Assembly (NCBI GenBank): GCA_903840015.1
Contig: CAIMEL010000013.1
Location: forward strand, 1-41,168
Direction of reading: 5' to 3'
Length of the DNA: 41,168 nt
DNA from: an uncultured bacterium
GTDB lineage: Bacteria; Patescibacteriota; Dojkabacteria; SC72
The translations under genes and the position numbers were made by a program. Each line of letters starts with the position of its first letter. The first letter of the stretch is position 1. Positions 9,475 to 29,915 of the stretch are shown one piece after another. The notes beneath the pieces are model-generated. The model had not been told where the DNA came from. It ran no database searches and saw nothing but the letters and a program-made list of their open reading frames with translations.

Positions 9475-9501
9475 GGCGTGTAGTTTTAAGGTAATCCTTC
9501 G

Positions 9502-9510
9502 ATTATATCA
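9502..9510 (-). promoter_or_regulatory. Extended -10 promoter of secA
   Basis: The minus strand reads TGATATAAT, a full extended -10 (TGn plus consensus TATAAT). Initiation near 9495 would give secA a leader of about 21 nt. The -35 region (TTCTTA) is weak, as is common with extended -10 promoters. Confidence 0.55.
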
Positions 9511-9562
9511 TTTATCAAAATTTTTAAGAATTTATACATATTTACAAAGTATATTTCTTTGT

Positions 9563-11116
9563 ATGTACAAATTAATCTACAGCACATTACTCTCTTTCCT
9601 CTTACTGTTCCTAAATCATTCCTACACCTTAGCTGCTGTAAAGCTTCTTGCACCAGGTAATGGGAGTGTAACTCAAAATATGGTGGAGACATTCAGTTGG
9701 ACAAATGATGATGTAGACCATGACTACATATATCTTTTCGAATACTCTTTTGACAAAGATTTCCGCACCTCTATACAAAGATTACCTACAGAAGAATTGA
9801 ATGTTTTACAAGGATTAGTTAACAACAAAATCATGTATTGGAGAGTCAAGTACAATCTTAAAGAAACTTTCTCCGGTTCCTTCGGAAATGTAACAGACGC
9901 ATTTGTGTTGGGTGTAGGACGAGAGATTCCAAAGGAAAATCCAGAAGAGATTGAACTCGAAGAACCAAAACCCAAAACAGAAGAAGTTGAAGAAAAAGAT
10001 ATTGTAATAATCAAGAAGCCCAACCATTCTCTCAAATTGAAACCGAGTATTAAGAAGATTCTTCCTCAAAAGGAGATTGCAAAGAAAACGGATGAAGAAT
10101 TTAGTTGGGATATTACAGGAAACAAAGACATTCTTGGAGTCCAAGAAACCAATGATATACATTGTCTGTTTAAATATCTTCAGGGTAAATCTGAAAAAAT
10201 TTACTGTAACTCTCCTCAATTCACAATTGAAGATTCCATCAGCTATTCACTTTCAAATACGTTCTCAGTCATAGTGAAAGGCAACATTCAAACAAGACTT
10301 AATGTTGTGGTAGAGAAATATATATGTAAACGGGAGATATTTGATCCAAGGACTTGGTTCACCTGTCAAGAACAATGTATTGGGAGAGAGGAATTGACTC
10401 TAAAACCAAATTTGTATATTTTTGCATTAGAGAGTAGATCTTTTGTGCCTGTGAGATCATATTCTGAAGAAAACAATCGTTTTTCACTTTTAATACGATG
10501 TAACAAATCGTGTGAGGAGATGATATTAAAAGCACGATTTCGTATTGTCATTTCCAAATACAATATCTTTGAAGATTTGATCGTAGAATCTCCTCTGCAA
10601 ATTTCAAAACCTCTAAACAACAAAAAGAAACCTTTCTCACTACCTCTCAAGCTCCCTGTTGGAGTAACTCAATGGTATGGCGATACCGAATATCAGAAAC
10701 CTCATACAGGAATTGACTTTGGAGTATCTAAGAAAAATATTTTAGCAATTGGTGATGGAGAGGTTGTATCTGTTGGGGTAGATAAGGCAGGGGAATGTAA
10801 TTCAGGTGGTAGATATTTAATCGTTCAACAAGAAAATGGTATGTATACAGGATATTTTCATTTGGAGAAGTGGTCGGTAAATATTGGTGAGAAAGTTAAG
10901 AGAAATGGAGTTTTAGGGATATCTGGAAACTCAGGTTCTTGGAACTGTCAGAATTTAAAGGATCATTTACATTTTGTAATTAGAAAGAAGAGAGCAAGCA
11001 AATCTCACGTTGATCCGGTCAAATATATTGAGGCTGAGTGGGAGAAGATCCCTACATTAGTATACAAACAGTATCCAGGACGACTATCGGGGAACAACCC
11101 ACATCCTGGTAGATAA
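9563..11116 (+). CDS. Secreted M23-family metallopeptidase (LytM-type) with Fn3-like N-terminal domain
   Basis: The predicted role is zinc-dependent cleavage of peptidoglycan cross-bridges outside the membrane. The ORF track runs back to 9182 antisense to secA. The ATG at 9563 is chosen because a signal peptide starts there (MYKLIYSTLLSFLLLFL, cleavage near residue 24). It gives 517 residues: a Fn3-like domain (about 25-115), an acidic K/E/P linker, a Cys-containing beta region, then the M23 domain at about 362-490. That domain has HTGIDFG, a glycine-rich turn, GYFHLEKW and the HLHF zinc-ligand motif, so the metal site looks intact. The cysteines suggest disulfides, consistent with the DsbA-like protein elsewhere in the window. 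The next ORF follows after 16 bp. Confidence 0.92.
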   Translation: MYKLIYSTLLSFLLLFLNHSYTLAAVKLLAPGNGSVTQNMVETFSWTNDDVDHDYIYLFEYSFDKDFRTSIQRLPTEELNVLQGLVNNKIMYWRVKYNLKETFSGSFGNVTDAFVLGVGREIPKENPEEIELEEPKPKTEEVEEKDIVIIKKPNHSLKLKPSIKKILPQKEIAKKTDEEFSWDITGNKDILGVQETNDIHCLFKYLQGKSEKIYCNSPQFTIEDSISYSLSNTFSVIVKGNIQTRLNVVVEKYICKREIFDPRTWFTCQEQCIGREELTLKPNLYIFALESRSFVPVRSYSEENNRFSLLIRCNKSCEEMILKARFRIVISKYNIFEDLIVESPLQISKPLNNKKKPFSLPLKLPVGVTQWYGDTEYQKPHTGIDFGVSKKNILAIGDGEVVSVGVDKAGECNSGGRYLIVQQENGMYTGYFHLEKWSVNIGEKVKRNGVLGISGNSGSWNCQNLKDHLHFVIRKKRASKSHVDPVKYIEAEWEKIPTLVYKQYPGRLSGNNPHPGR

Positions 11117-11132
11117 TTTAGTATGAAAATAT

Positions 11133-11777
11133 ATGGAGAACTTACTTGGTATTGTATTAATTTTGTTTGAATTGATGTTCGTCCATACTGACAGATTTCT
11201 GGTAGCAGGCATTCGTAATCCACAACAAGTATTATGGAGAAAGGAGTATGAGGTAATTCTAGTTCAAGACATGGATATGTTTAGATTAAATATCCTCACA
11301 AGAGAACAGCAAGAGATTGGAGAGAGACAACCAAATGAATTTGTTGGTCTAAACAGTAATGGAGAATTGATGTTTTGTGAGATACAACATTTTTTAATAC
11401 AAGAGAGAGATGAATATTCGACTATCTTTAAGATATATGATCAGGAGAGAAATTTAGTAAAAGAGTTAAAATTCTTTGAGACTATTAGACCACTAAATCT
11501 CTTTGACAACAATATTGTTGCAGTAACTGCTCTAGATTTTTTAGAGACACACTACTACGATATATCAATACAGAGTGGAGAGTACAAAGAACGGGAGGAA
11601 TGGCTAGAAACAGAATCTGAGATGTTAGAAATAGATACCTTCGGCAATGTTTATATAACCCTAGAGAGGACAAAAACTATAATACCGACATTGATCCCTA
11701 TCTTAAAAACAATGCTTAGTAATAGTCCAATGAACGACCCTATACCTGCTTTAAAACTACTCTTGAAGTCTTTGTGA
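11133..11777 (+). CDS. Hypothetical protein with N-terminal hydrophobic segment; 3' end overlaps the DUF456 gene
   Basis: The 214-residue protein starts with a hydrophobic stretch that could be a signal or anchor. It continues as beta-strand-like segments with recurring short polar turns (QDMDMFRLNIL, FVGLNSNGELMF, LDIDTFGNVYI-like), reminiscent of a partial beta-propeller. No family is recognised. It lies 16 bp after the M23 gene and is probably cotranscribed. The last 42 codons are antisense to the DUF456 gene (127-bp convergent overlap), and the C-terminal residues are low-complexity I/L/P. The original stop may therefore have been lost and the tail may be read-through. Confidence 0.6.
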   Translation: MENLLGIVLILFELMFVHTDRFLVAGIRNPQQVLWRKEYEVILVQDMDMFRLNILTREQQEIGERQPNEFVGLNSNGELMFCEIQHFLIQERDEYSTIFKIYDQERNLVKELKFFETIRPLNLFDNNIVAVTALDFLETHYYDISIQSGEYKEREEWLETESEMLEIDTFGNVYITLERTKTIIPTLIPILKTMLSNSPMNDPIPALKLLLKSL

Positions 11778-12133
11778 GCAAATAGTAGTTCAAATGCTGT
11801 TGCTCCTAGTACAGGCCCTATCAACATACCTACTAGATTTCCTACTGCTAAGCCAACTATTCCTCCAATAATTGCACCTGCCATACCCCATCCACTACCA
11901 CCTAATTTCTGAGCTCCTAATGCAACTATTACATTATCTGCCAAAGTAGAAAGTAGAGATACTATGAAGAGAATGATTAGAATAATTGGGGTGATTATCT
12001 CAAAGTGGCCCATCCAAGCTAGTATGAAAGCAGATATATATATTAACCAAACACCAGGGAGAGAGAGAACTGTTAGAACAAGTCCTGTTAATGACAATAT
12101 ACCAAGAAATATGTAAGCAATGATTTCAAACAT
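11651..12133 (-). CDS. DUF456 family membrane protein
   Basis: The 160-residue protein is almost wholly hydrophobic with about four to five membrane segments. It has the glycine-rich central signature of DUF456 (SGWGMAGAIIGGIVGLAVG followed by GPVLGATAFELL). Length matches the family, whose biochemical role is unknown. It is the last gene of the minus-strand glycan operon, 41 bp past the ATPase gene. Its C-terminal coding part overlaps the convergent hypothetical ORF. Association with the polymer export genes is positional only. Confidence 0.85.
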   Translation of the reverse strand: MFEIIAYIFLGILSLTGLVLTVLSLPGVWLIYISAFILAWMGHFEIITPIILIILFIVSLLSTLADNVIVALGAQKLGGSGWGMAGAIIGGIVGLAVGNLVGMLIGPVLGATAFELLFAHKDFKSSFKAGIGSFIGLLLSIVFKIGINVGIIVFVLSRVI

Positions 12134-12174: not shown

Positions 12175-12906
12175 CTAAACCTTTAGAAGTTTATCGTAAG
12201 CTTCAGAAGCCTCTTTGTATGGACCATCAAAAACTACTTTGCCAGCATCTAAAACAATTCCACGAGAACAGAAATTTGAAGCACTCTCTGGAGAATGGGT
12301 AACATAAAGGACTGTAACATGGTTTCGTTCCACTATCTCATCTATCTTCTTTTGACACTTCTCCCTAAACTGTTTATCACCAACACTCAAAGCTTCATCA
12401 ATAACCAATATCTCAGGATCTATATTCGCATTAATCGAAAACCCTAACCTTGCAACCATACCACTAGAATATGTTCGAACAGGTTGATCTATATAATCTC
12501 CGAGCTCTGCAAATTCAATAATGTTAGGTTCCAATCTACGTATATGTTCATCCTCTAAACCCATTAACTGTCCTTTAAGATAGATATTCTCCCTACCGGT
12601 AAACTCAGGGTCAAAACCTGTTGTCAATTCCAGCAAAGCACTCACTCTACCATTAACTACTATCTCTCCCGAAGTTGGGAAAACCACTCCAGTTATCATC
12701 TTCAACAATGTAGATTTCCCGGCACCATTACGACCTAATATCATTAAGGCTTCTCCAGGCTTAATATCAAAAGACACATTATCATTAGCCTTAACCAATT
12801 TGTATTTTATTCCTTTAAAAAATATCCCTAAGAATCTTCTTTTATCACTCTTGTAAAGCTTGTATTCCTTAGTTACATTCTTAAATTGTATTGCATACTC
12901 TTCCAT
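12175..12906 (-). CDS. tagH: ABC polysaccharide/teichoic-acid exporter, ATP-binding subunit (TagH/Wzt type)
   Basis: The 243-residue ATPase has Walker A GRNGAGKST, the Q-loop region GVVFPTSGEI, the signature YSSGM characteristic of the TagH/Wzt export branch (in place of LSGGQ) and Walker B ILVIDEAL. The switch histidine follows in YVTHSPES. It would pair with the adjacent permease to flip a lipid-linked polymer across the membrane. The protein ends soon after the nucleotide-binding domain. It therefore lacks the C-terminal carbohydrate-binding domain of Wzt O9a and the long extracellular extension of Bacillus TagH. Sixteen bp separate it from the permease gene. Confidence 0.93.
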   Translation of the reverse strand: MEEYAIQFKNVTKEYKLYKSDKRRFLGIFFKGIKYKLVKANDNVSFDIKPGEALMILGRNGAGKSTLLKMITGVVFPTSGEIVVNGRVSALLELTTGFDPEFTGRENIYLKGQLMGLEDEHIRRLEPNIIEFAELGDYIDQPVRTYSSGMVARLGFSINANIDPEILVIDEALSVGDKQFREKCQKKIDEIVERNHVTVLYVTHSPESASNFCSRGIVLDAGKVVFDGPYKEASEAYDKLLKV

Positions 12907-12921: not shown

Positions 12922-13719
12922 CTAAAGTACATCTGGGATATCTTTACGTAATTTCTTGTAAATGATAACACCAAGGATAAACATAATCAGGGTGATCACA
13001 CAGAAAACAATCAAACCCTTGTAATCTTCAAAAAACCATCTTTTGTATATAAAGGTATCTCTAAAACCTCTTGTTAAATATGTAACAGGATTAATTCTAA
13101 AGAAAATCTCTGCAAGAGGATTAGAAACTTTGGAAGAATCCCATATAACTCCTGATAGCCAAAAGATTGGAGTAACAAAGGCCTTAACAAGATTTGTAAA
13201 ATCCTTACTAATTGCAGCAAGAGGCGAAGCAAACAATGCCCACGAGGTAAAAAGAACATAAGACATTAGTAAATATATAGGAAGTTGTAAGATATATATA
13301 TCAGGATAGTATCCAAGAAGGATAAATATAACTATAACAATCCCTATCATGCATAAATTTACAAACATCTTTGAAAGACTTACAAACGTTGGAATTGTAG
13401 ATACCGGGAAGTTCATCTTTGTAACCAAATGCTTATACCCTCTGATAGATTCGACTCCTTGGGTAATCATTTCTGACATATAGAACCAAGGAACAATACC
13501 AGCAATCAACCAAAGGAAAAAAGGATAGCCAGCAACCATGCTAGGAGATCGTAGACCAACACTGAAAGTAAACCAGTAGACCAAGATTGTCACCGTTGGT
13601 TTGATTATAGCCCATGACCAACCCAATGCAGAACCCCTATACGTTTTAATCAAATCTACTTTCGCAAGCTTGAATATAATGTTTCCAAAACCTCTATGTT
13701 CTCTAATAATGTCGATCAT
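12922..13719 (-). CDS. tagG: ABC polysaccharide/teichoic-acid exporter, permease subunit (TagG/Wzm type)
   Basis: The 265-residue integral membrane protein has the ABC-2 layout with six hydrophobic segments. It shows the conserved N-terminal amphipathic region before the first span (DLIKTYRGSALGWSWAIIKP) and the ending NPVTYLTRGFRD seen in polysaccharide and teichoic-acid exporters. It is encoded directly upstream of its ATPase partner and 3 bp after tagD. The substrate is inferred from the flanking TagD, GpsA and TagF-like genes as a glycerol-phosphate-containing polymer, but export of the sialylated glycan by the same transporter is equally possible. Confidence 0.92.
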   Translation of the reverse strand: MIDIIREHRGFGNIIFKLAKVDLIKTYRGSALGWSWAIIKPTVTILVYWFTFSVGLRSPSMVAGYPFFLWLIAGIVPWFYMSEMITQGVESIRGYKHLVTKMNFPVSTIPTFVSLSKMFVNLCMIGIVIVIFILLGYYPDIYILQLPIYLLMSYVLFTSWALFASPLAAISKDFTNLVKAFVTPIFWLSGVIWDSSKVSNPLAEIFFRINPVTYLTRGFRDTFIYKRWFFEDYKGLIVFCVITLIMFILGVIIYKKLRKDIPDVL

Positions 13720-13722: not shown

Positions 13723-14181
13723 CTACTTCTTTTTATTCCCCTCTCCAGCTCCAGGTTCAGGTATTTGATCTATCTTACTATCAGGAGCCTGTAAATTAAG
13801 ATCTTGTTTAATCTGAGTTGTAGATATACCTTCAGTTCTTGGGAGATATACAACTTCACAATGCTCTTTAAGATATTCAAATCTCTCGCTACCTTCCCAG
13901 TCAGTACCCATTACAACTACATCTACCTTGTAATTCTTTACATCATCTAACTTCTGCTCCCATGTCTCTTCTGGAATAACAAGATCAACATACCTTATAG
14001 CCTCCAACATCTCTTTTCTTGTCTCATAACTATGATAAGTTTTTTTATTCTTTATATCATTGAAAGCCTCTGTTGAGAGGGCAACTATCAAATAGTCCCC
14101 CAAAGCCTTTGCTCTTTTTAGTAATCTAATGTGACCGTAATGCAACAAATCGTATGTCCCGTAAGTAAGTACTCGTTTCAT
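13723..14181 (-). CDS. tagD: Glycerol-3-phosphate cytidylyltransferase
   Basis: TagD makes CDP-glycerol from CTP and sn-glycerol-3-phosphate. The 152-residue protein starts with RVLTYGTYDLLHYGHIRLL, containing the HxGH nucleotidyl-transfer motif, and has VMGTDWEGSERF and the family signature RTEGISTTQI. Size and motifs fit TagD/GCT closely, with about 20 extra charged residues at the C-terminus. It lies between gpsA, which makes its substrate, and the exporter permease. Together with the downstream TagF-like enzymes this provides a CDP-glycerol supply and use pathway in one operon. The leader is AT-rich without a Shine-Dalgarno. Confidence 0.95.
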   Translation of the reverse strand: MKRVLTYGTYDLLHYGHIRLLKRAKALGDYLIVALSTEAFNDIKNKKTYHSYETRKEMLEAIRYVDLVIPEETWEQKLDDVKNYKVDVVVMGTDWEGSERFEYLKEHCEVVYLPRTEGISTTQIKQDLNLQAPDSKIDQIPEPGAGEGNKKK

Positions 14182-14232: not shown

Positions 14233-15147
14233 TTATCTATGTATACTGTCCAGAGATAATCCTTCAAATAGAATCGCGTACAATTGCCTCAATATTGGAC
14301 ATTCAAGATTATGTTTCTGAATAAAATCATACATAACCTTTGTATTTCTATACCCTTCAACTTCATACTGCATTTTCTCAAAGATTTCTTTTACCGATAA
14401 TCCCTCTCCAAAATAAATACCGAACTTTTTGTTTCTTGAATTTAGCATCATATCTCCAAGTCCTGATAATGAATAAAAAGTTTCTCTCCTACCACCTAAT
14501 ACCTCGCCAACTACAACTAGTTCTTCCAAAGCATGAACAAAATAGTAAGCATAGGTATTTTCGCTAACTTTGATTCCCTCTAGAATTCCCAAATAGATTA
14601 ACAAGACATTTTTCATTGTTGCAGATAGCTGACAACCGATATAGTCGTTTGTATATGAGATTCTCAAATTTCCTCGCTGTAATAGGTTTATAAATTCAGG
14701 CAGAGGTTTCTTACCAGACAATACCAATCCTGTTAAATCGCCCCTTGCCATTTCAGAGGCTATTGACGGACCATAGAGAAAGGACACATTATCCAAAGAT
14801 ATTAAGTCTGAAAACAGATTCCCACCTTCACCGAGTCCCTTAGAACCAATAATGACTTCTTTCTGCTTTAACTCTATCTTAAAATCATTCAGTGTTTTAA
14901 CCACAAACTCTGAAGGTAATGCAACAATGATATATGGAGACTTAGAGATAACATCTTTAATATCAGTAGAGTAATGAATATATTTATCTCTTGCATCAGA
15001 ATCTATACATTCACTAAACATAGCCTTCGCAGCAGGTATATTATCTTCACTGTATTCCCATAGGAAAGAGGTAACCTTGTTTTTCGCAAAATTGATGGCT
15101 AATGCATTTGCTAACTTACCTGCCCCTAAGATGGAAAGTGATTTCAT
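14233..15147 (-). CDS. gpsA: NAD(P)-dependent glycerol-3-phosphate dehydrogenase
   Basis: GpsA reduces dihydroxyacetone phosphate to sn-glycerol-3-phosphate. The 304-residue protein has an N-terminal dinucleotide site (ILGAGKLANALA), GSKGL and YGPSIASEMA. The substrate-binding lysine region is KNVLLIYLGILEG, followed by GLGDMMLNSRNKKFG and the C-terminal VEGYRNTK. It is slightly shorter than the usual 330 or so residues. Its placement between TagF-like and TagD suggests it is dedicated to CDP-glycerol production, although it could also serve lipid synthesis. Stop and start spacing to the TagF-like gene is 2 bp, indicating one transcript. Confidence 0.93.
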   Translation of the reverse strand: MKSLSILGAGKLANALAINFAKNKVTSFLWEYSEDNIPAAKAMFSECIDSDARDKYIHYSTDIKDVISKSPYIIVALPSEFVVKTLNDFKIELKQKEVIIGSKGLGEGGNLFSDLISLDNVSFLYGPSIASEMARGDLTGLVLSGKKPLPEFINLLQRGNLRISYTNDYIGCQLSATMKNVLLIYLGILEGIKVSENTYAYYFVHALEELVVVGEVLGGRRETFYSLSGLGDMMLNSRNKKFGIYFGEGLSVKEIFEKMQYEVEGYRNTKVMYDFIQKHNLECPILRQLYAILFEGLSLDSIHR

Positions 15148-15149
15148 GA

Positions 15150-16778: not shown

Positions 16779-16802
16779 AGTAAGAAATATAAAAAGAAAT
16801 TG

Positions 16803-17981
16803 TTAGACTTGTTTTAGATCAAATAGTTTATCGAAAGCATCATAGTCTCTATTAAATAGATTCATAAATCCAGCATCAACATTGTACTTAGAAGAGAGAC
16901 ATAACTCCTTATATGACTTTCCAATACTTATAACCTCCACCTTTGGATCTATTAACTTAATGTATAGTAATGAAGAGGATGTAATACTGTAGACCCTTTT
17001 GAATTTGCCAGAGGGAATTAGATTTTCCACTGGAACATGATCGTAGCCATACAATGATTTTACTTTTAGTTTAGGATGTTTTTTTATCGCTTCTTCCAAA
17101 TGAACAGCATACATTTTCTGTTCCTCTTTAGGGTGGAATTTAATTATTACGTTTTTCTCACCTTCCCGTTCAAGAATATCAAAGATGATATTGAAATGAA
17201 TATCATATGGTATATAGCGTTGATTAATGAGGAGTACACTGTTTTCAGGAATATCCTTCGTTAACTTTTGTATATCTGAGCTATCTACAAAGAAATCTAA
17301 TTTTTTAATCTTACTAATACGCCCTTCACCACCCATTTCTTTCAATTTTTTTGGGAAACAAACATATGCCTCATCAAAATGATCAATATGACCATATCTG
17401 TATTTTTTAGGTATACGAATGCTTTTTATATAGTCGAATATATTCCTTTTGGTAAGCCAGGAGAGAAATTTCAAGAAGGAAACAACCATTGATACGAAAG
17501 CCTTCTTGCAATATTTAAAAACTCTTTTCAGAGCTGATCTAACATCACGAATTGTAAATTCTCGTTGCAGGTCTTTGGCAAACATTCGATATGTTGTAAG
17601 ACCCTCTTCAAACAGATTCAATCTTAGATTCTTTTGGATTGATATCTCCTCAAGATACTTGTAGTAATTGTCTGTATTTGCGATGAAAAGATTTTCCAGT
17701 TTATATGCATCAACTATCTCTTCAAAGACATTATTAAACATTTCATATATCTTTTTACATTTTGATACTGTGGTACTTAATGGACGAAATGGTAATTCAA
17801 AATATATAACTTTTAAGAAATCTCCTTTGTATATATTCTTCTTTAAATTTTCCAGATTATCCATAGCATCTGGCGTATAGAGAATTAACAATACATTGTT
17901 TTTGGAATTTTGCTGAGTAATTAAACCGTGAGCATTTCTCAATTGACCTAACCTAGTTACTACAAAAATATTATTATTCAA
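16803..17981 (-). CDS. Polysialyltransferase-like glycosyltransferase (GT38 / alpha-2,8-polyST superfamily)
   Basis: The 392-residue protein has the three motifs shared by bacterial sialyltransferases of the GT38/52/80 superfamily. These are an acidic D/E-D/E-G motif (LFEEGLTTY), the HP motif (IIKFHPKEEQ), whose histidine binds CMP, and a serine/threonine motif (YSITSSSL). This supports transfer from CMP-sialic acid or a related CMP-sugar. The start is a TTG at 17979-17981, because no upstream in-frame start exists before a TGA. A basic stretch near residues 155-200 could attach to the membrane. It is the first gene of the operon with TagF-like, GpsA, TagD and the exporter. Whether it polymerises or adds a single residue cannot be read from sequence. 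Confidence 0.75.
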   Translation of the reverse strand: MNNNIFVVTRLGQLRNAHGLITQQNSKNNVLLILYTPDAMDNLENLKKNIYKGDFLKVIYFELPFRPLSTTVSKCKKIYEMFNNVFEEIVDAYKLENLFIANTDNYYKYLEEISIQKNLRLNLFEEGLTTYRMFAKDLQREFTIRDVRSALKRVFKYCKKAFVSMVVSFLKFLSWLTKRNIFDYIKSIRIPKKYRYGHIDHFDEAYVCFPKKLKEMGGEGRISKIKKLDFFVDSSDIQKLTKDIPENSVLLINQRYIPYDIHFNIIFDILEREGEKNVIIKFHPKEEQKMYAVHLEEAIKKHPKLKVKSLYGYDHVPVENLIPSGKFKRVYSITSSSLLYIKLIDPKVEVISIGKSYKELCLSSKYNVDAGFMNLFNRDYDAFDKLFDLKQV

Positions 17982-17999
17982 TTCAATTCAGAATAAATT

Positions 18000-18046
18000 T
18001 ATCACAGTATAGTATGATGCAATTCTATCACAGGTACACTAGAATT
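18000..18046. promoter_or_regulatory. Operator-like repeats in the divergent glycan control region
   Basis: Between the divergently read polysialyltransferase-like and methyltransferase genes, TATCACAG occurs twice (18000-18007 and 18026-18033), 26 bp apart. An inverted repeat AATTCTA-12-TAGAATT (18021-18046) overlaps the second copy. A minus-strand TATACT (18006-18011) with CTGTGA 16 bp upstream could be the promoter of the minus operon. No regulator binding here can be named. Confidence 0.4.
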
Positions 18047-18092
18047 TCTTCCCCAATATATGCCAACTCTACTATATCTGGAGCTAAACAAG

Positions 18093-18098
18093 TATAAT
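18093..18098 (+). promoter_or_regulatory. -10 element that decides the methyltransferase start
   Basis: A consensus TATAAT ends six bases before the ATG at 18105, so initiation near 18105 would give an almost or fully leaderless mRNA. It argues for the ATG at 18105 over the upstream ATG at 18060. The -35 region is poor. Confidence 0.45.
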
Positions 18099-18104
18099 AC
18101 AATC

Positions 18105-19352
18105 ATGATTTCTAAGAATATAAATATCAAGCTGCCCTTCTACGATAAGAATGGTCAGCATTGTGAAGGTGTTGTATCAACAAAAAAGCAGGCAGATGCT
18201 ATCAAGAAATTCATTCACAATATTGACACAGGAGAATACTCCACAATGGAGCTAAAATGTCTTTGCGGTAATATTGATCCCAAGTTAGATGTATTACTTG
18301 CAGAACGTGATCGTTATGGAATTCCTTTCCAAAATGTTCTATGTACCAAATGTGGCCTTGTCCGAGCTAAATATACACTAGACGAGAATTCTTCTGCGAA
18401 ATTCTATCAAGACTTATACAGAGATATCTACTCTTGGGGAGGCTTTACCGAAAAAGAGAACATCGAACATCTCTTCAGAGAACAGATAGATAGAGGAAAA
18501 CGATTTAGTCGTAAACTAACAGAGCAAATTGGTTCTTTGGATAGAATAACTACAGTTTTTGAAATTGGGACAGGTTGTGGTGGGAATCTTATTGCATTTA
18601 GTGAACTTGGGAAGCAAGTTGTTGGTTGTGATTTTAACAAAGGTTATCTTAAATATGGAGCAGAGAAAGGATTAGATTTACGCTATGGAGATCTGAGTTC
18701 CCTAGAAATTGAAGATTCTTCTCAAGATTTGATTATTCTTAGCCATGTATTAGAACATTTTTCGAATCCAGTTGAAGAACTTAATTCGATAATTAAGAAG
18801 GTTTCTACAAATGGCTATTTAATAATCGAAGTACCAGGTATTTTAAATTTGGGACATCTATATAGGAATTTACTAAAATATTTTCAAAATGCACATACTT
18901 TTAATTATTCAGAGAAATCTTTGGATGTATTATTCACAAAACTTAATTTAGAAATTATTTATTCGGATGAAAGATGCCTTTGTATATTAAGAAAGCCCAA
19001 AAACTGGACCCCGATATCAAGTGGAACTCCAATATATAGCTCCGACTTGAAAAATCATTACCTAGAAGTTTTAGAATATCTAAAAGAAATTTACATATTA
19101 GAGAATGTCGCCACAGAATTATATGATGAAATACAAACCTCCAAAAATACAATCCACGAGAATCAAACGAGAATGGCAACTTTATATAGAGAGTTGGACT
19201 CTTTAAAGAAGAATTTGGATCTTTTACGGCACGACAATGTTAGGATTAAGAAAAATAAGTGGTACCTATTTGGTAAATATAGTTTGAAAAGAAAAATAGC
19301 TTTCTTGATCAAAGAAATTTCTAAAAAATTACAAAGCAAATTAAACATCTAA
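18105..19352 (+). CDS. SAM-dependent methyltransferase with zinc-binding N-terminus and coiled-coil tail
   Basis: The 415-residue protein (from the ATG at 18105) has Cys pairs near the N-terminus (CLCGN and CTKCGLV) forming a likely zinc site. A class I methyltransferase domain follows, with motif I VFEIGTGCGGNL, an acidic loop (GDLSSLE) and ILSHVLEHFSNP. The arrangement resembles the C-methyltransferase-like proteins often found in glycan loci. After the catalytic domain a helical coiled-coil region (about 325-375) precedes a basic C-terminus that might bind membrane. It is followed 20 bp later by the GT42 sialyltransferase, probably in one transcript. The substrate, a sugar nucleotide or glycan end, is unknown. 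Chain-end methylation is one possibility. Confidence 0.85.
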   Translation: MISKNINIKLPFYDKNGQHCEGVVSTKKQADAIKKFIHNIDTGEYSTMELKCLCGNIDPKLDVLLAERDRYGIPFQNVLCTKCGLVRAKYTLDENSSAKFYQDLYRDIYSWGGFTEKENIEHLFREQIDRGKRFSRKLTEQIGSLDRITTVFEIGTGCGGNLIAFSELGKQVVGCDFNKGYLKYGAEKGLDLRYGDLSSLEIEDSSQDLIILSHVLEHFSNPVEELNSIIKKVSTNGYLIIEVPGILNLGHLYRNLLKYFQNAHTFNYSEKSLDVLFTKLNLEIIYSDERCLCILRKPKNWTPISSGTPIYSSDLKNHYLEVLEYLKEIYILENVATELYDEIQTSKNTIHENQTRMATLYRELDSLKKNLDLLRHDNVRIKKNKWYLFGKYSLKRKIAFLIKEISKKLQSKLNI

Positions 19353-19372
19353 ATTAAATAAAATATTTTAAT

Positions 19373-20362
19373 ATGGTTAATCAAATACAAAATGTTCTAG
19401 ACCAAAACTCTTATAGCAGACTCTTACCTACTATTGAAAAAAACAACTTACCAATTGTAATTGTTGGTAACGGACCGTCAGTTTCGAGAATTAATTACAA
19501 AAGATTACCAAAAGAATTTCTTACTTTCCGAATCAATAACTTTTTCTTGGAAGACAAATATTATCTTGGTAAGAATGTCGATCTTTGCTACGCCAGTATG
19601 CCCATAGATAATAGTATATATACGCTTCTTGGTACTATAACAAATCACGAATACAAATTTAATTCAAATTTCTTCTTTACCAGAGAAAGAGTAACCGGTC
19701 GATTCCCAGACCAGAGCCTTTTCCCTCGGATAGAAATTGAAAAATTACTTTCCTTAGACATCAAGATGTCTAGCTACATGGCAGAGATTTTTCACTACCA
19801 GCAAAAACACATTACTAGCGGTATACTTTCCTTACTAGCATCAATAGTGATGGGATTTAAGAAGATATATTTAATTGGTTTAGACTTTTACTCTGATACA
19901 GATAGACGATATGCTTACAAGCTCGGGGAGAATTACAAAAAATCGCTAACAAAAGAAGATCTCGTAGTTGGATATAGCGAGACACTACATAGCAGAGACA
20001 TAGATCTAAAGGGCCTTGATATTGCACTGTCATATCCAGATGTACAAATCGAATCTATCTGCGATGATGCTTTTGTGAATCAATTTGTTGACTTGGCGGA
20101 GTCGAATAATAAATCACCAATGAAAGCTTCGAAGAAAACAGGAGAATGGACAAATGATTTACTGATAGCACCAAACTTACAAACTGAACCTCAGAATTTA
20201 ATTACAAAACTATCTCTACAAAAAGAAGTAAAGTATATTAAAAAATCTCTATTCGTAAAATTGGTCTGGGGACTCATTGTACAACCTCTTATTATAATTC
20301 CGTTCATGCTAACCAAAAAATTGGTACTGAATTTAGTCAACTTTATGAAGAAAAAGGATTAG
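19373..20362 (+). CDS. GT42-family sialyltransferase (Campylobacter CstI/CstII-like)
   Basis: GT42 enzymes transfer sialic acid from CMP-Neu5Ac to galactose or sialic acid. The 329-residue protein matches the family along its length: IVIVGNGPSVSRINYKRLP (CMP-binding loop), FRINNFFLEDKYYLGK, ITSGILSLLASIVMGFKKIYL and GLDFYSDT. A histidine in TLHSRDIDLKGL sits where CstII has its catalytic base. These strings closely parallel CstII (GNGPSL, EDKYYLGK, ITSGV, GIDFY). The C-terminus adds a basic and hydrophobic segment (about 290-325) that may anchor it to the membrane. It converges with the GT2 gene 9 bp away. Linkage specificity cannot be read from sequence. Confidence 0.9.
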   Translation: MVNQIQNVLDQNSYSRLLPTIEKNNLPIVIVGNGPSVSRINYKRLPKEFLTFRINNFFLEDKYYLGKNVDLCYASMPIDNSIYTLLGTITNHEYKFNSNFFFTRERVTGRFPDQSLFPRIEIEKLLSLDIKMSSYMAEIFHYQQKHITSGILSLLASIVMGFKKIYLIGLDFYSDTDRRYAYKLGENYKKSLTKEDLVVGYSETLHSRDIDLKGLDIALSYPDVQIESICDDAFVNQFVDLAESNNKSPMKASKKTGEWTNDLLIAPNLQTEPQNLITKLSLQKEVKYIKKSLFVKLVWGLIVQPLIIIPFMLTKKLVLNLVNFMKKKD

Positions 20363-20371: not shown

Positions 20372-21574
20372 TTAAGCCACCAATCTACGTTTGAGTACCT
20401 TAATTAATTTCAAGATAACATATCGTATCTTCTGTAGAAGATTACCATCATATCTTCTCACTTTTCTAACGAATCTCCTTAAACGTTTAAGAAATTTCTT
20501 TGGACATTTTAAAAATTTTCTTTTCTTACTATTCCAATACTGAACTTTTACATATCTCTTATAATATTTTTCATATCTCTCCATCGACTCTGCAGAAACA
20601 CCTATCTTGTTAGCTATTTCAAAAAATTCTCTTAAAAGAGGATATTCCTCACAGAATTTTTCCAATCCATTCATAAAATCTTGTTGGTCTTTTAGTTCTA
20701 CATAAAAAAAACTGTAAAGTTCCAGATCTTTAGAAACTTTGTTTAGGTTCTCTTCGGTTATAAATTTCAACTTATCTTGAAATGTTTTACACCACCCATG
20801 CAAAACAGCATCACAAAGTAATAGAAGCTCTTCACCTTTATAATGCTTTTTAATGAAAGGCATTTTCGAAGAAAGTCCTTTAATTAAATCTCCAATATGT
20901 CGAGTAGTAATATGCGAAGTGATGGAGCCATCTCGAATTACCCAATAGTAATAAGGATCCTCCACTCCACATACTTTTTTGGCATAAACAAAAAGTTTAT
21001 ACATAACAGGAACATCTTCATGTAATCCCAAAGGAAACCAGATATTATGTTTCTTAAAAAGGTCTTTCCTTATCAATCTCGCTTGAGTCATAGAGGGAAT
21101 TCTATGCGCGAGTATCTGTTGTAATAGTAAAATTCTATCATCTAGCAAAGTTTTATATGAATTGTTTTCTTTCAAGATTTCCCCGTTTTCATAAACTCTC
21201 TTGAATCCAGTTGAAACAATGTCACAATTTCCCTTCTTCGCAGCATCTAACATAGCCTCTAAAGCTGTATTCTCTAAGTAATCATCACTATCTATGAAAA
21301 AAACAAACTCACCACGTGCTTCTCTGATTCCACGATTCCGTGTCATTCCTAGTCCTCTATTTGGATTATTTCTTAAAAGCCTTATATTCTTTGCCTTTTT
21401 AAGATATTCCTTCGCAATAACAACACTTTGATCTGGGGAACAATCATCTATCAATAGAATTTCAAACTTCTCTGAAGCAAGAGTTTGATTTACCAGACTA
21501 TCAATACACTTAGCTAAATATTTCTCAACATTGTATATCGGTACAACAACAGTAATTTTAATGGGATTTTTCAT
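20372..21574 (-). CDS. Glycosyltransferase family 2 with basic C-terminal extension
   Basis: The 400-residue protein has a GT-A domain: TVVVPIYNVEKYLAKCIDSL, ILLIDDCSPDQS, GLGMTRNRGIREARGEFV and the metal-binding FIDSDDYLE. A helical region and a strongly basic tail of about 60 residues (repeated K/R-R clusters) follow and may bind the membrane surface or the anionic polymer. It is an inverting transferase of the type common in capsule loci. It is read with neuA upstream (19 bp) and so belongs to the NeuB-NeuA operon. It could provide the acceptor sugar for the sialyltransferase, but specificity is unknown. Confidence 0.9.
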   Translation of the reverse strand: MKNPIKITVVVPIYNVEKYLAKCIDSLVNQTLASEKFEILLIDDCSPDQSVVIAKEYLKKAKNIRLLRNNPNRGLGMTRNRGIREARGEFVFFIDSDDYLENTALEAMLDAAKKGNCDIVSTGFKRVYENGEILKENNSYKTLLDDRILLLQQILAHRIPSMTQARLIRKDLFKKHNIWFPLGLHEDVPVMYKLFVYAKKVCGVEDPYYYWVIRDGSITSHITTRHIGDLIKGLSSKMPFIKKHYKGEELLLLCDAVLHGWCKTFQDKLKFITEENLNKVSKDLELYSFFYVELKDQQDFMNGLEKFCEEYPLLREFFEIANKIGVSAESMERYEKYYKRYVKVQYWNSKKRKFLKCPKKFLKRLRRFVRKVRRYDGNLLQKIRYVILKLIKVLKRRLVA

Positions 21575-21593: not shown

Positions 21594-22277
21594 TTAAGAG
21601 CAGTTTATCTTCAATATCTGTTCAATTATCTCCCAATCACTTGGTTCATCTATCTCGTAATAGCTGTTTTCATTCATTTCTTGGCATCCTACTTTACCAT
21701 ACATCCTACATCCTGTCTCTAATAATTTCTCTCTACTGGTGATATAGAAGGCACCATTCTCTACCAAAAATCCATCAAAGTTCTGTCTCCTAGGTCTATT
21801 ATTAAAATCATAGTTCTGTGGTGATACAGACCCATCTTCTTTATATTTCCAAACAAATCTCTTCTGAGGAACAACAGACAACATACTATCAAATTTAGGA
21901 TAATTATTTACTGCTTCCTCTAAATCTTTTGCTGTTAACAAAGGACTAGTAGCTTGTATCAAAATAATATTCTCAAACTCATAATTATTTGCAAATTCCA
22001 ACATAGCGCTCTCGGTAGAAGCAGTATCTGTTGCTGTTTCTGGACTTCTATCTATCACAACTATCTTATCCTTATTCTCTTTATCATACTCAGCTACAAC
22101 CCTTCTAATATCATCACTATCTGTAGAGATATATACCTTATCAATCTGTGGAGTATTAACAGCGGCATCAATAGTCCAATACACCAATGGTTGCCCTGCT
22201 AATTCCTTAATATTTTTCAATGGTATGGATTTACTTCCACCTCGAACAGGAATGAATGCTACAAATTTGTCTTTCAT
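21594..22277 (-). CDS. neuA: CMP-N-acetylneuraminate (acylneuraminate) cytidylyltransferase
   Basis: NeuA activates sialic acid with CTP to CMP-sialic acid. The 227-residue protein has the signature IPVRGGSKSIPLKNIKELAG, YISTDSDDI, ILIQATSPLLTAKDL and a C-terminal ENGAFYIT plus EIDEPSDWEI. All are standard for the family, and the length matches the single-domain form without the E. coli esterase domain. Legionaminic and pseudaminic acid enzymes share these motifs, so the exact nonulosonic acid is not settled. It follows neuB by 16 bp and precedes the GT2 gene. The leader is A/T-rich with no Shine-Dalgarno. Confidence 0.92.
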   Translation of the reverse strand: MKDKFVAFIPVRGGSKSIPLKNIKELAGQPLVYWTIDAAVNTPQIDKVYISTDSDDIRRVVAEYDKENKDKIVVIDRSPETATDTASTESAMLEFANNYEFENIILIQATSPLLTAKDLEEAVNNYPKFDSMLSVVPQKRFVWKYKEDGSVSPQNYDFNNRPRRQNFDGFLVENGAFYITSREKLLETGCRMYGKVGCQEMNENSYYEIDEPSDWEIIEQILKINCS

Positions 22278-22293: not shown

Positions 22294-23169
22294 TTATTTA
22301 TTCCACTTCAATTTCTCTCTCTGTGCTTTCTCTATTTCCAATAGTCCATCTCCTTTAAATCGTAGGGCTTTGTAAGTTGCCATCAGATCTCTCTTAACTC
22401 TTCTCAATCCATCTGGTTCCAAAGATGCTGCATGATCAGTACCTTTAGATGTTCTGTCCAAAGTATAGTGTCTTTCTATTGTTGTAGCACCCAAGGTATA
22501 GGCAGCAACATCAATCGCAATACCAAGATGATGTCCCGAAAAACCTATCTCTTTTACTATTTTTCCATATTTCTTAACAAAATTCGTAATTTCCAAAAGA
22601 CAGATATCTTCAAATGGTACTGGATAACCAGATGTACAGCTATACAAAACAACATCTTTATTCCTCTTCTGTTTAACAAAGAAATCTATCAAATCCCCAA
22701 CCTCATCTGCAGTAGTCATACCTGTTGATATATGGATTTCCCCATCAAAATTCTGACATAGCCACTCCAACATCTCCCAATGATTATTACAGGCAGATGG
22801 GATTTTGATTAAGTTCGGATGTAAATCTGCTATTTCCTGAGCAGACTTCAAATCCCATACTGATGTACTATACTCTATACCAACTTCTTCGCAGTATTCT
22901 TTTAATTCCCTATGTTGTTCCTTTGTAAACTCTAATGCCTCTCTATGTTCTCTGTATGTTTCCCCATATGCATTCGCAGGGTTAGGATGAGGGGAACTAT
23001 ACAACTCTGGATCTTTTTTAGCCCATGTTTTAACATCTCTTTTTTGCAATTTAATCACATCTGCCTTGCAAAATGTTTTAGCCATTAGGATTAATTCTTT
23101 GGCAGTATCCATACTTCCCATATGGTTACACCCTATCTCAGCAACTACTCTTGGTTCTTTCATAGTCAT
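22294..23169 (-). CDS. neuB: N-acetylneuraminate (nonulosonic acid) synthase lacking the SAF domain
   Basis: NeuB condenses phosphoenolpyruvate with N-acetylmannosamine (or a related hexose) to give sialic acid. The TIM-barrel is complete: AEIGCNHMGSMDTA, VIKLQKRDV, YSTSVWD, IKIPSACNN, HISTGMTTADEV, SGHHLGIAIDVAA and ERHYTLDRTSKGTDHAASLEP. The two histidines of SGHH and ERHYT match the metal ligands known from Neisseria NeuB. The protein stops at 291 residues, just after the barrel, whereas typical NeuB (about 345) adds an antifreeze-like SAF domain that covers the partner active site. No separate SAF ORF is next to it. It follows the TagB/F-like gene and precedes neuA. Confidence 0.92.
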   Translation of the reverse strand: MTMKEPRVVAEIGCNHMGSMDTAKELILMAKTFCKADVIKLQKRDVKTWAKKDPELYSSPHPNPANAYGETYREHREALEFTKEQHRELKEYCEEVGIEYSTSVWDLKSAQEIADLHPNLIKIPSACNNHWEMLEWLCQNFDGEIHISTGMTTADEVGDLIDFFVKQKRNKDVVLYSCTSGYPVPFEDICLLEITNFVKKYGKIVKEIGFSGHHLGIAIDVAAYTLGATTIERHYTLDRTSKGTDHAASLEPDGLRRVKRDLMATYKALRFKGDGLLEIEKAQREKLKWNK

Positions 23170-23180: not shown

Positions 23181-24281
23181 TTATTTAATCTTAAACAGTT
23201 TAACTATCTCTGCAGTACAATTATTCTCAACTGCAGAAAGATATTTCTTTCGCAAATTAGTATATATCTTCTTGTCATATCCTCCACTCTGAATTATCTC
23301 TACTATCTTTTTACCATCTTTCGATGAATATTCTGGCATCTCCTTCTTCCAATCAATATTAAGGCCTGTTTCTTCTTTATATTGCTCATAGTCAAACAGG
23401 TAGAATAGTAGAGGTTTATCCAAAATCATTGCTTCAAATGCCACAGCTGAATAGTCCGTAATTATGTAATCTGCATACTTCATCCACTCCATACTAGGAT
23501 ATGTATAGTCCAATATAACTCTGTCATCGTCAATACTGATAGGTTCATTAGGGTGCGGTTTTAATATGAGGTTGTACTTTGAATAATCCACTGCAGATAT
23601 CAGCCCTTCTAATTCCAATTCTCTGTTTTTCCTAAATGTAGGAACATACACAATATTGATCTTTTCTTTTACAACAGGATAATCTTTGACTAAGTCCTCA
23701 TTTAAGACATTTCTTTGCTCTCTTAAATAGTCAACTCTTGGCATCCCTAAAGGTAAAATCCTTTCCTTTGGAGTATTAAAAGCCACTTCATAGTGAGGAA
23801 TTGTACCTGGTCCGCTACAGATTACATAATCATAGTTTCTGTGCATCTTCATCGCCATTGCTACCTCAGTCGGATACCCATCTGGTTTGTCTAAAACCTG
23901 ATACCCAAATTGCTTAATAGCCCCAAGAGCATGCCAAATTTGTATAATTTGTAAATCTTTCTTGTGATTAAGAACAGAGACAGTAATTATATAGCTATCA
24001 ACAATACAAATCTTACTAGTTGCAAGATGGTACATTTTCTTAAACATATAGAAGACATAGAGGATTTTACCTAATTTGTTCTCTGGAATTTTCTTCATTA
24101 AAGATACTATCTTCAACTTTGGATACTGCTTACCTATCTCCTTCCTTAAAAGTTGAAAATCTAAAGTCTCTGTATCTGAAAAACGGCTAATGAATACTAC
24201 CTTGTCTTGAGTAGGTAATAGCTTTAAAAAGAAATATATCACACGTAGTTTTAGGAGCAGTAATTTCAAAATTAGAATCAT
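23181..24281 (-). CDS. CDP-glycerol glycerophosphotransferase family protein (TagB/F-like), second copy
   Basis: The 366-residue protein has a short N-terminal hydrophobic/basic part and then a Glyphos_transf domain. Motifs are IIQIWHALGAIKQFG, VICSGPGTI, IVYVPTFRKN, LILKPHPNEP and YIITDYSAVAFEAM. Length and motif set fit TagB-type primases or wall teichoic acid glycerophosphotransferases. It differs clearly from the 542-residue paralogue. It is the first gene of the NeuB-NeuA-GT2 operon. This suggests that glycerol phosphate (or another polyol phosphate from a CDP donor) is joined to the sialylated structure. The ATG at 24281 has no Shine-Dalgarno. Confidence 0.88.
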   Translation of the reverse strand: MILILKLLLLKLRVIYFFLKLLPTQDKVVFISRFSDTETLDFQLLRKEIGKQYPKLKIVSLMKKIPENKLGKILYVFYMFKKMYHLATSKICIVDSYIITVSVLNHKKDLQIIQIWHALGAIKQFGYQVLDKPDGYPTEVAMAMKMHRNYDYVICSGPGTIPHYEVAFNTPKERILPLGMPRVDYLREQRNVLNEDLVKDYPVVKEKINIVYVPTFRKNRELELEGLISAVDYSKYNLILKPHPNEPISIDDDRVILDYTYPSMEWMKYADYIITDYSAVAFEAMILDKPLLFYLFDYEQYKEETGLNIDWKKEMPEYSSKDGKKIVEIIQSGGYDKKIYTNLRKKYLSAVENNCTAEIVKLFKIK

Positions 24282-24386: not shown

Positions 24387-24418
24387 GTATGTATAACATA
24401 TATAAATATATACATACT

Positions 24419-25597
24419 ATGAAGAAATCCATCTCTCTAATAATAATTACCCTATTCCTGATAATCTTCTCCTTTGCTTTACCATCTGGTATACAAGCTG
24501 CAGAATTTCACTTCAAATCATACACTCTAACACAGGAAGAAACTGTAAAAGATGACATATATGCATTTGGTGATTCAGTAAAAATAGATGGAGTCATAGA
24601 TGGAGACCTAATAGTGATAGCTAGCAATGTACAGCTAAATGGAACCGTTACAGGAGATGCCTACCTCTTTGGTACTACGGTAAATATAAATGGGAATGTA
24701 ATTGGGACAACAACCATATTTGCTAACAACACATCTGTACAAGGTGTACTCTCAGAGAATGTATCAATAGTAAGTACATATATTACCTTCAATGCTCAAA
24801 CCTCAAAGGATGTCTTTGCACTCTCTGCAGAAAACACATTCCAAGGCTCCATCGGTGATGACTTAAGAGCATACAGTATCAAATCAAATATCGATTCCAC
24901 AGTAAGTGGTGACCTCCTACTTCTTGGTAATGACTATACTGTTAGTGAAGAAAAGATATCCAGGAATATATATTACAACTCAACACTTAATACAATCGCA
25001 AGAGACCAGGGTGTAGATGTTGAAAATGGTGTGAAGATCAAGATGCCAGTAGTCTTAGACAAATCAATAGAGAATAATTGGAGCTTCATATCCCTAAAAG
25101 CTCTAGTAGGTTTTGTTAGCTTCGCTTTAATTGGCTTAATACTCATAACTCTGACTCCAGTAAAAAGTGCCGAAATCAGTAGCAAGATAACAGGATCTCC
25201 TGATGAATTCCTGAAAAGCCTCATAATGGGTTTTGCCATATTCCTTCTCCTACCATTCCCCATCTTCCTCCTCATGATATCAATTGTAGGATTCCCTGCA
25301 GCACTACTAATTGGTGGAATACTCTTCTTCGCAATGTATTTTGGTAGAGTATGGGTAGAACTATCTTTCGGGAAAGAACTGTTGGAACTCTTTGGTGTAA
25401 AAGGATACAGACCATACAAATCCTTCTTAGTTGGTAGAGTTATCTCTGTTGGTATAAATTTCATACCAGTAGTAAGAGGATTCTACAACACAATACTCTC
25501 ACTGGTTGCTCTAGGAGCAATCTTTAGAGTCAAGAAAGAATACTACCAAATAGCTAAAGAACAGGCAGAGAAATACAAAAGTAAGAAGAAGAAATAA
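24419..25597 (+). CDS. Secreted bactofilin-like beta-helix domain with C-terminal membrane segments
   Basis: The start at 24419 is preferred over 24389 because it begins a clean signal peptide (MKKSISLIIITLFLIIF, ending near AEF). Residues 30-190 are short repeats of the type D-x-h-x-h-x-G-x-h, such as DGDLIVIA, TGDAYLFG and NGNVIGTTTI, as in the bactofilin/polymer-forming beta-helix fold. The second half has about four membrane segments and ends in a K-rich tail. The predicted topology puts a beta-helix outside the membrane, unlike cytoplasmic bactofilins. A role in envelope shape or surface organisation is inferred only. A terminator-like hairpin lies directly after the stop but is better formed for the opposite strand. 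Confidence 0.82.
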   Translation: MKKSISLIIITLFLIIFSFALPSGIQAAEFHFKSYTLTQEETVKDDIYAFGDSVKIDGVIDGDLIVIASNVQLNGTVTGDAYLFGTTVNINGNVIGTTTIFANNTSVQGVLSENVSIVSTYITFNAQTSKDVFALSAENTFQGSIGDDLRAYSIKSNIDSTVSGDLLLLGNDYTVSEEKISRNIYYNSTLNTIARDQGVDVENGVKIKMPVVLDKSIENNWSFISLKALVGFVSFALIGLILITLTPVKSAEISSKITGSPDEFLKSLIMGFAIFLLLPFPIFLLMISIVGFPAALLIGGILFFAMYFGRVWVELSFGKELLELFGVKGYRPYKSFLVGRVISVGINFIPVVRGFYNTILSLVALGAIFRVKKEYYQIAKEQAEKYKSKKKK

Positions 25598-25619
25598 AAA
25601 GAGGAGGCATTAAGCCTCC
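25590..25619 (-). terminator. Intrinsic terminator of the DsbA-like gene
   Basis: The minus strand reads GGAGGC-TTAAT-GCCTCC followed by TCTTTTTATTT, a GC-rich 6-bp stem and a T tract. It lies just past the DsbA-like stop at 25643. On the plus strand it lacks a T tract, so its main use is probably minus-strand. Confidence 0.8.
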
Positions 25620-25642
25620 CCTTCAATCATCAATCTTAACTA

Positions 25643-26404
25643 TTACTTAGCCAACATCTCGTTAATAGTACTCTCAAATGTAGCATATGGATATGCTCCT
25701 GCTATTAACTTACCTGTAACCTTACCGTCCTCTCCAATAACTCCAATAATGAAGCCTGGTGTTCCTGTAATACCTGCTTTACTACCCTCTTCTCTGTCAG
25801 CAGCAATCTCATCAGCATATCTCTTTTCAGACATACATTTGTCATACTTAGCTCCATCAACTCCCAAACCAGTAGCTATCTTCTTTAAAGCAGCCTCTGT
25901 CTCGGTAAAGAAAGCACTCTTGTGGAAACTCTCAAATGCAGAACTACCCTTTAATTCAAACACACACATACCTGCATGTGCAGTAGTATATCCAATCTGA
26001 CCTTCTCCACTCAAAGGAAACTCCTTAAATACATACAGTATCTTACCTGTATCTATATAGTTACTCTTAATCTGAGGATATGTCTCCTGAGAATGTCTCT
26101 GACAGTAACCACAACCGTAATCACTGAAATCAACAACTGCAACCTTTGCCTTACTCTTGTCACCCAAGAAAGGATCATCTCCAAGTGTTACAACAACATC
26201 ACCAGCTGCAGGAGTATCATCATCCTGTGCTATTCCATCATCCTTCTTATCACTATCTGGATTAGCTGTATTATTCTTACTTGTAAAAAATATTACTGAG
26301 GCAATTATTATCCCTGCAATAATTATTGCTATTGGGACACCAAGGGAATCTAAATTTACTACGACTTCTTCCTGTTTAACCTCTTTTTTCTTCTTCTCTG
26401 GCAT
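25643..26404 (-). CDS. Membrane-anchored DsbA-like thiol-disulfide oxidoreductase
   Basis: The 253-residue protein has a charged N-terminus, one membrane segment (about 22-40), an acidic linker and a thioredoxin-fold DSBA-type domain. The domain shows VVDFSDYGCGYCQRH (active-site CGYC near residue 98) and the cis-proline loop GITGTPGFIIG. The domain outside the membrane would oxidise or isomerise cysteines of exported proteins, like BdbD/DsbA. Likely clients in this window include the Cys-bearing M23 protein and the island protein. No DsbB/VKOR partner is present nearby. A TATAAT lies 37 bp upstream, and a strong terminator follows the stop. Confidence 0.92.
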   Translation of the reverse strand: MPEKKKKEVKQEEVVVNLDSLGVPIAIIIAGIIIASVIFFTSKNNTANPDSDKKDDGIAQDDDTPAAGDVVVTLGDDPFLGDKSKAKVAVVDFSDYGCGYCQRHSQETYPQIKSNYIDTGKILYVFKEFPLSGEGQIGYTTAHAGMCVFELKGSSAFESFHKSAFFTETEAALKKIATGLGVDGAKYDKCMSEKRYADEIAADREEGSKAGITGTPGFIIGVIGEDGKVTGKLIAGAYPYATFESTINEMLAK

Positions 26405-26441
26405 ATTTGTATATATAAAGATTAAATATGTGTAATCTACT

Positions 26442-26471
26442 ATTATACCTTGAATAGACAGGTCGAGTAAA
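26442..26471 (-). promoter_or_regulatory. Candidate promoter of the DsbA-like gene
   Basis: A minus-strand consensus TATAAT (26442-26447) has TTTACT 18 bp upstream (26466-26471). It overlaps the divergent promoter of the hydrolase gene, so the two could compete for polymerase. Confidence 0.4.
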
Positions 26472-26483
26472 CTGGAATATAAT
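26455..26483 (+). promoter_or_regulatory. Sigma-70 promoter of the alpha/beta hydrolase
   Basis: TAGACA (26455-26460), 17 bp, then TATAAT (26478-26483) is near consensus. An AGGAG (26487-26491) six bases before the ATG gives a real Shine-Dalgarno, although the predicted transcript start lies at or within it. Confidence 0.65.
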
Positions 26484-26497
26484 GAGAGGAGAAGAAG

Positions 26498-27343: not shown

Positions 27344-27346
27344 TAT

Positions 27347-27553
27347 CTACTCTTCTACAATTATAGCTGTTGCAGGACATGCAGCTGCTGCTTCCTTTAC
27401 CTTAGCCTGAAGATTTTCATCAACGATATCTACACCCTTGTAGCTATCCTTAACATCTACACTACCATCATCTTTCATCTCAAAAACTTCTGGGCATATT
27501 GCTACACATGAGCCACACATTATACAAGCACCTTTGTCTATGGATACTTTCAT
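27347..27553 (-). CDS. Small [4Fe-4S] ferredoxin
   Basis: The 68-residue protein has the classical ligand pattern C10-x2-C13-x2-C16-x3-C20-P, with C59-P near the end, as in monocluster ferredoxins of the Thermotoga/Bacillus type. C10, C13, C16 and C59 would hold one [4Fe-4S] cluster, with C20 extra. It is a low-potential cytoplasmic electron carrier. No partner oxidoreductase is encoded nearby. It is probably transcribed with or just after the histidine kinase gene upstream (62 bp). Confidence 0.94.
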   Translation of the reverse strand: MKVSIDKGACIMCGSCVAICPEVFEMKDDGSVDVKDSYKGVDIVDENLQAKVKEAAAACPATAIIVEE

Positions 27554-27615
27554 TTACATATATATTGAAATTAGATAGATATATTTTTACAGAAATATAT
27601 GTTTAGGTCAAACAG

Positions 27616-29889: not shown

Positions 29890-29915
29890 GTTTAAACTAT
29901 CTATATATTAATCTT

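Follow-up and report, generated by a model that had tools for sequence, protein, structure and literature searches.

To our knowledge, the polysialic acid systems described in the literature that we consulted belong to Gram-negative, animal-associated bacteria and make Kdo-linked capsules. CstII-type sialyltransferases of family GT42 add an alpha-2,3-linked and then an alpha-2,8-linked sialic acid. The known bacterial polysialyltransferases (PSTs), grouped in family GT38, are 28-31% identical to one another (PMC5517516). They are unable to start chains and require sialylated acceptors (PMC2169525, PMC5517516). Furthermore, the residues K75, R259 and K293 were termed strictly conserved PST acceptor residues in the paper describing the MhPST structure. 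In A. pleuropneumoniae, a TagB-family enzyme adds the glycerol-phosphate linker of an exported capsule (PMC11666461). As for the bacteria of the candidate phyla radiation (CPR), sialic acid production is mentioned in passing in a Peribacteria genome paper (PMC4736985), and our literature search returned no paper joining nonulosonic acid with Patescibacteria.

In this study, we analyzed a window of 41,168 nucleotides, the whole of contig C13 from a CPR-type genome of 680 kb that is 96.6% complete; the CPR/Patescibacteria assignment follows from genome sizes in the phylum sample. This stretch carries a GT38 homologue between nonulosonate genes and teichoic-acid-type genes (Table 1), suggesting that the surface of the bacterium is covered by a polymer resembling (poly)sialic acid.

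The GT38 homologue

The gene is a single open reading frame of 392 codons starting with TTG. This start, already chosen in the preliminary description, is upheld, as a stop codon lies two codons upstream and the sole alternative is ATT. Sequence comparison confirmed that the protein is a homologue of the GT38 bacterial PSTs. It matches the alpha-2,8-polysialyltransferase model PF07388 over profile positions 1-308 of 316 (E 6.5e-33, 115 bits against a curated cut-off of 23.3), a model to which NeuS of E. coli K1 aligns with 152 bits. The closest solved relative in a PDB search is MhPST, the polysialyltransferase of M. haemolytica (5wcn/5wc6, E 2.9e-19, residues 3-363). The pairwise identity of about 29% (29-30%) falls within the range found among known PSTs. 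The same GT-B structure, 5wcn, was the top Foldseek match of the AlphaFold model (E 6e-18, probability 1.0, TM 0.46). Given that this model is weak (pLDDT 58, from a two-sequence alignment), the fold match is supportive only, in line with the sialyltransferase fold anticipated in the preliminary description.

That description had also recognized a CMP-sugar transferase from E-E-G, HP and S/T motifs, and all of them lie at positions equivalent to those of MhPST. E125-E126-G127 aligns with E152-E153-G of MhPST, which provides the catalytic loop and base, and with E163/E164 of the K1 enzyme. K281-x-H283-P284 corresponds to K289-x-H291-P, involved in CMP binding and leaving-group stabilization. 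The glutamate contacting the ribose (E323 in MhPST) is E319, the phosphate-binding pair S339/T340 is S335/S336, and Q44 is Q13. The position of Q41 is occupied by R10 and is an asparagine in K1 NeuS, hence it is variable. On the acceptor side, R259 and K293 are retained as R255 and K285, K75 is replaced by E44, and T155 by L128.

The N-terminal extension of about 40 residues that bears the membrane anchor in MhPST and K1 NeuS is missing. No frame upstream of the TTG encodes a frameshifted anchor. However, the anchor is dispensable for MhPST catalysis (PMC5517516), so we did not count it as a defining feature of GT38. The protein has a longer segment at about residues 133-190, a low-confidence insert in the model. 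Within it, residues 144-161 are basic and amphipathic and residues 160-178 are hydrophobic, and the segment might act as a membrane contact. Altogether, the K75 and T155 replacements and the missing anchor are points that may speak, with some uncertainty, against a long polysialic chain.

Gene content of the locus

Table 1. Features of the window, with the evidence for each assignment.
Feature	Position	Strand	Basis
Left conserved flank: SecA, M23 peptidase, o11133, DUF456	6556..12133		same order in same-genus G001, G004, G005
TagH/KpsT/Wzt-type ABC ATPase	12175..12906	-	PF00005 E 1e-19
TagG/KpsM/Wzm-type ABC permease	12922..13719	-	PF01061 E 3e-17
TagD, glycerol-3-phosphate cytidylyltransferase (yields CDP-glycerol)	13723..14181	-	TIGR01518 equivalog, 188.7 vs 165.4 bits cut-off
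GpsA, glycerol-3-phosphate dehydrogenase	14233..15147	-	PF07479 E 6e-33; NCBIfam
TagF-like glycerophosphotransferase family protein, divergent, 542 aa	15150..16778	-	PF04464 E 8.4e-23
GT38 (PF07388) polysialyltransferase homologue	16803..17981	-	Pfam, PDB, aligned catalytic residues, Foldseek
Class I SAM methyltransferase	18060..19352	+	PF13489 E 2e-13
GT42 (CST-I/CstII-type) sialyltransferase, candidate primer	19373..20362	+	PF06002 E 3e-33
GT2 glycosyltransferase	20372..21574	-	PF00535 E 1.7e-36
NeuA-type CMP-nonulosonate synthetase	21594..22277	-	PF02348
NeuB-type nonulosonate synthase without SAF domain	22294..23169	-	PF03102 E 5e-64
TagB/TarL-like glycerophosphotransferase	23181..24281	-	PF04464 E 1e-50
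Right conserved flank: o24389, DsbA-like, hydrolase, histidine kinase, o29916	24389..31481		same order in same-genus G001, G004

The GT38 gene starts a minus-strand run that continues with the TagF-like gene, gpsA, tagD, tagG and tagH, separated by gaps of 24, 2, 51, 3 and 15 nt. This tight run agrees with the GT38-headed operon initially proposed, and co-transcription of GT38 with the adjacent TagF-like gene is likely. The TagF-like protein matched none of the PDB sequences. The TagB-like protein hits the TarB model below cut-off (E 2.5e-37) and TarL in the PDB (E 7.9e-19). Elsewhere, the genome codes for two PF00953 proteins, of which, in our reading, one is MraY-like and the other WecA/TagO-like, and for one LCP ligase (PF03816). 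The TagB-like and TagF-like proteins, GpsA, TagD and TagGH, together with the TagO-like and LCP proteins, fit a teichoic-acid-style lipid-linked assembly line. The preliminary description had set these teichoic-type partners against the KpsMT genes of known polysialic capsules. The partners themselves stand, but the contrast is weaker than claimed, since the permease is related to KpsM (E 7e-12, below the model's cut-off) and the ATPase is 37% identical to KpsT of E. coli K1.

On the side away from the tag run, NeuA, NeuB and the GT42 sialyltransferase are encoded 1.4-5.2 kb from GT38. The GT42 protein matches the solved Cst-I/CstII structures with E-values of 1e-26 to 1e-21 (2p2v, E 9.5e-27). 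The PDB matches of NeuA include PpNeuA (E 1.7e-47) and the animal-type CMP-Neu5Ac synthetase 1qwj (E 9.5e-37). Hence, the locus is equipped to supply CMP-nonulosonate itself, and it includes a likely primer enzyme. With these genes at hand, a transferase of new donor specificity, as suggested earlier, is not needed, and we found no support for it. The methyltransferase has a Cys-rich N-terminal segment, and a relative of it (32% identity) is encoded near NeuA/NeuB in another locus (L019). Thus, this enzyme may modify the nonulosonate or the polymer.

Which nonulosonate is activated is less clear from these genes. NeuB matches the N. meningitidis enzyme with an E-value of 1.5e-21, and it lacks both the SAF domain and a residue aligned to E134 of that enzyme, a hint that its substrate may not be ManNAc. 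In addition, no UDP-GlcNAc 2-epimerase (PF02350: NeuC, MnaA) was detected in the 96.6% complete genome, and neither GlcNAc 2-epimerase (PF07221) nor NanE (PF04131) was found in it. With these three families absent, it is not apparent where the ManNAc for Neu5Ac would come from. Considering also that NeuB has no SAF domain, the product may be Kdn formed from mannose, the precursors may be scavenged, or the required gene may lie in the small part of the genome that is missing (a few percent). These are points against Neu5Ac as the donor, although uncertain ones.

A swap locus and its distribution

The contig is anchored in its genus by SecA, which is 79-87% identical to the SecA proteins of same-genus genomes, and by conserved gene order on both sides of the cassette. 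Between the same flanks, genomes G001 and G004 carry a different polysaccharide cassette with another ABC pair and dTDP-rhamnose-type genes (names read from translated N-termini). The interval measures about 25 kb in G001 and about 12 kb, filled by the sialyl/teichoic cassette, in the GT38 genome. Positions 11651-24389 of the window thus face about 44300-69500 of contig C1 of G001 (L042/L043) and the equivalent region of G004 (L046/L047), with shared flanks and unlike cassettes within one genus. This surface-polysaccharide locus shows the pattern of a serotype-like, capsule-switching-like swap locus. The sialyl cassette is slightly AT-richer than its surroundings (GC 0.31-0.37, compared with 0.35-0.39 in the flanks).

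GT42 (PF06002) was present in none of the 379 other sampled genomes of the phylum, and no clear second GT38 was seen among the 380. The other PF07388 matches in this sample were four, all weak: one in G243, rejected because GT52 fits better; one in G285, rejected as a UDP-GlcNAc 2-epimerase cross-hit; one in G246, below cut-off; and one in G383, with 25.8 bits. Likewise, a profile built from three GT38 sequences retrieved no convincing second member in the 86 genomes of the class. Counts based on PF07388 only can mislead because of the epimerase cross-hit. For instance, the protein at 1297-2379 of L004 exceeded the PF07388 cut-off in the genome search, and hmmscan of this UDP-GlcNAc 2-epimerase returned PF02350 only. 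PF07388 matches in control genomes, probably the same cross-hit, were left unused. Another genome of the phylum (L003, 1207-2133; L017 of G243, 9048-11238) carries a GT52-family protein whose neighbour is a NeuA joined to a GDSL lipase/acylhydrolase domain.

Outside the phylum, M. haemolytica was the only source of GT38 relatives among named-organism genome contigs. In strain DSM 10531 (L016, 289-1397), the frame of the polysialyltransferase homologue, located at a contig start, is apparently interrupted near its 5' end. Phages and viral contigs yielded no relatives, and plasmids a single distant one, a PF07388 protein (E 7e-34) on pSymB of S. meliloti USDA1157 at a site with no annotated feature (L051, 9953-11254). 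No homologues of the locus NeuA/NeuB were found within 10 kb of this S. meliloti gene.

Proposed polymer and comparison with known systems

Family membership, the residues of the catalytic and donor sites, the gene content and the position in a swap locus are observed, whereas the donor used, the length of the chain, the sequence of assembly steps and the anchoring are matters that we infer from the genes described above. GT38 would be an inverting sialyltransferase using a CMP-nonulosonate, which the locus-encoded NeuB and NeuA would provide; this could be CMP-Neu5Ac, or CMP-Kdn if NeuB takes mannose. Since known PSTs do not start chains and CstII-type enzymes lay down the first residues, GT42 and GT38 would form a natural primer-plus-polymerase pair. 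GT42 would probably lay an oligosialyl primer on a glycan, and GT38 would most likely extend this primer to a chain of (poly)nonulosonic acid. A glycerol-phosphate stub, the product of TagD and the TagB-like and TagF-like enzymes, may join the glycan to a lipid carrier that the TagO-like enzyme would have charged. Export of the chain would then fall to the TagGH/KpsMT-type ABC pair, and the LCP ligase may fix it to the wall. The acceptor need of GT38, the CstII activity and the TagB-family precedent make a (poly)nonulosonic chain on a glycerol-phosphate-linked lipid the most likely product. We give this reading, in which the chain is GT42-primed, ABC-exported and specified by a swap-locus cassette, a probability of roughly 0.55.

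The presence of two PF04464 enzymes suggests that the glycerol-phosphate part is longer than a stub. This brings up a different role for GT38, as a mono- or oligo-sialyltransferase decorating a poly(glycerol phosphate) main chain built by those two enzymes, with no long polysialic acid. GpsA and TagD also imply a substantial glycerol-phosphate part, and both the glutamate in place of the acceptor lysine and the insert standing in for the N-terminal anchor would suit a decorating enzyme. However, the acceptor groove keeps the R259 and K293 equivalents, the characterized GT38 enzymes in the literature searched are polymerases, and GT42 could already add single residues. We therefore regard a decorating role as rather unlikely. 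A hybrid polymer of sialyl and glycerol-phosphate units, as the preliminary description had envisaged, is possible. In its strict form, GT38 and the TagF-like enzyme would act in turn, so that each nonulosonic acid is followed by glycerol phosphate, or by a hexose that the GT2 enzyme adds, in a polymer resembling a teichulosonic/teichoic-type capsule. The adjacency of the two genes agrees with such a repeat, and there is a precedent in capsules of poly(glycosylpolyol phosphate) that combined enzymes produce (PMC5974469). On the other hand, the two activities sit on separate proteins and not on a fused bifunctional polymerase, the retained acceptor residues suit an oligosialyl acceptor, and our literature search found no alternating sialyl-glycerol-phosphate polymer assembled by a GT38 enzyme. 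We consider the alternating repeat improbable.

The rarity of GT38 and GT42 in the phylum sample and the AT-richer cassette could also point to an assembly or binning artefact. Against this, the SecA identity and the synteny of both flanks with same-genus genomes, which bear another polysaccharide cassette at exactly the same place, constitute a strong argument that the contig is not mis-binned. An artefact is thus highly improbable, and contamination was rejected on the same grounds.

Returning to the primed and elongated chain, we tentatively propose, at somewhat less than even odds, that an ultra-small CPR-type cell makes a polysialic or poly-Kdn polymer, GT42-primed on a glycerol-phosphate anchor, by means of a cassette-acquired set of GT42, GT38 and Tag genes that is unique in the phylum sample. 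If true, the range of GT38 would extend to a very different envelope, that of a 680-kb cell with teichoic-acid-type genes. It would also suggest a different priming of polysialic acid, in which GT42 acts on glycerol phosphate as the linker and Kdo is not used. Moreover, the swap locus indicates that whole surface-glycan cassettes are exchanged in minimal, possibly host-dependent bacteria, as in capsule-switching bacteria, and this is relevant to attachment to hosts and escape from phages.

Compared with the known PSTs, namely MhPST, E. coli K1 NeuS and N. meningitidis SiaD, the protein shares PF07388, the GT-B match, the E-E-G, K-x-H-P and S-S/T motifs and the R259 and K293 equivalents. It differs from them in the missing anchor, the extra segment, the two substitutions and its tiny-genome host. 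With the group 2 polysialic acid capsule of E. coli K1 (kps/neu), the locus has in common NeuB, NeuA, GT38 and an ABC-2 permease with its ATPase. Unlike that system, it adds GT42, the TagB-like and TagF-like proteins, GpsA and TagD, and the genome is devoid of NeuC; by Pfam search of the locus, NeuE, KpsC/S and KpsD/E are not among its genes. From the wall teichoic acid pathway, the genome has the TagD equivalog, the TagB/TagF family, a TagGH-type exporter, a TagO-like enzyme and LCP, whereas it lacks MnaA and the locus carries sialyl genes. The GT42 protein belongs to the same sequence family as CST-I/CstII of Campylobacter, with a structure match, but is encoded here beside GT38 and not among LOS genes. 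Finally, no Kdo-linker genes were identified in the locus and its polymerase would be GT38 rather than the TagF-like Cps3D of the A. pleuropneumoniae CpsA/CpsC capsules, yet those capsules likewise combine a TagB-family enzyme and a CDP-glycerol supply in the locus of an ABC-exported polymer (PMC11666461).
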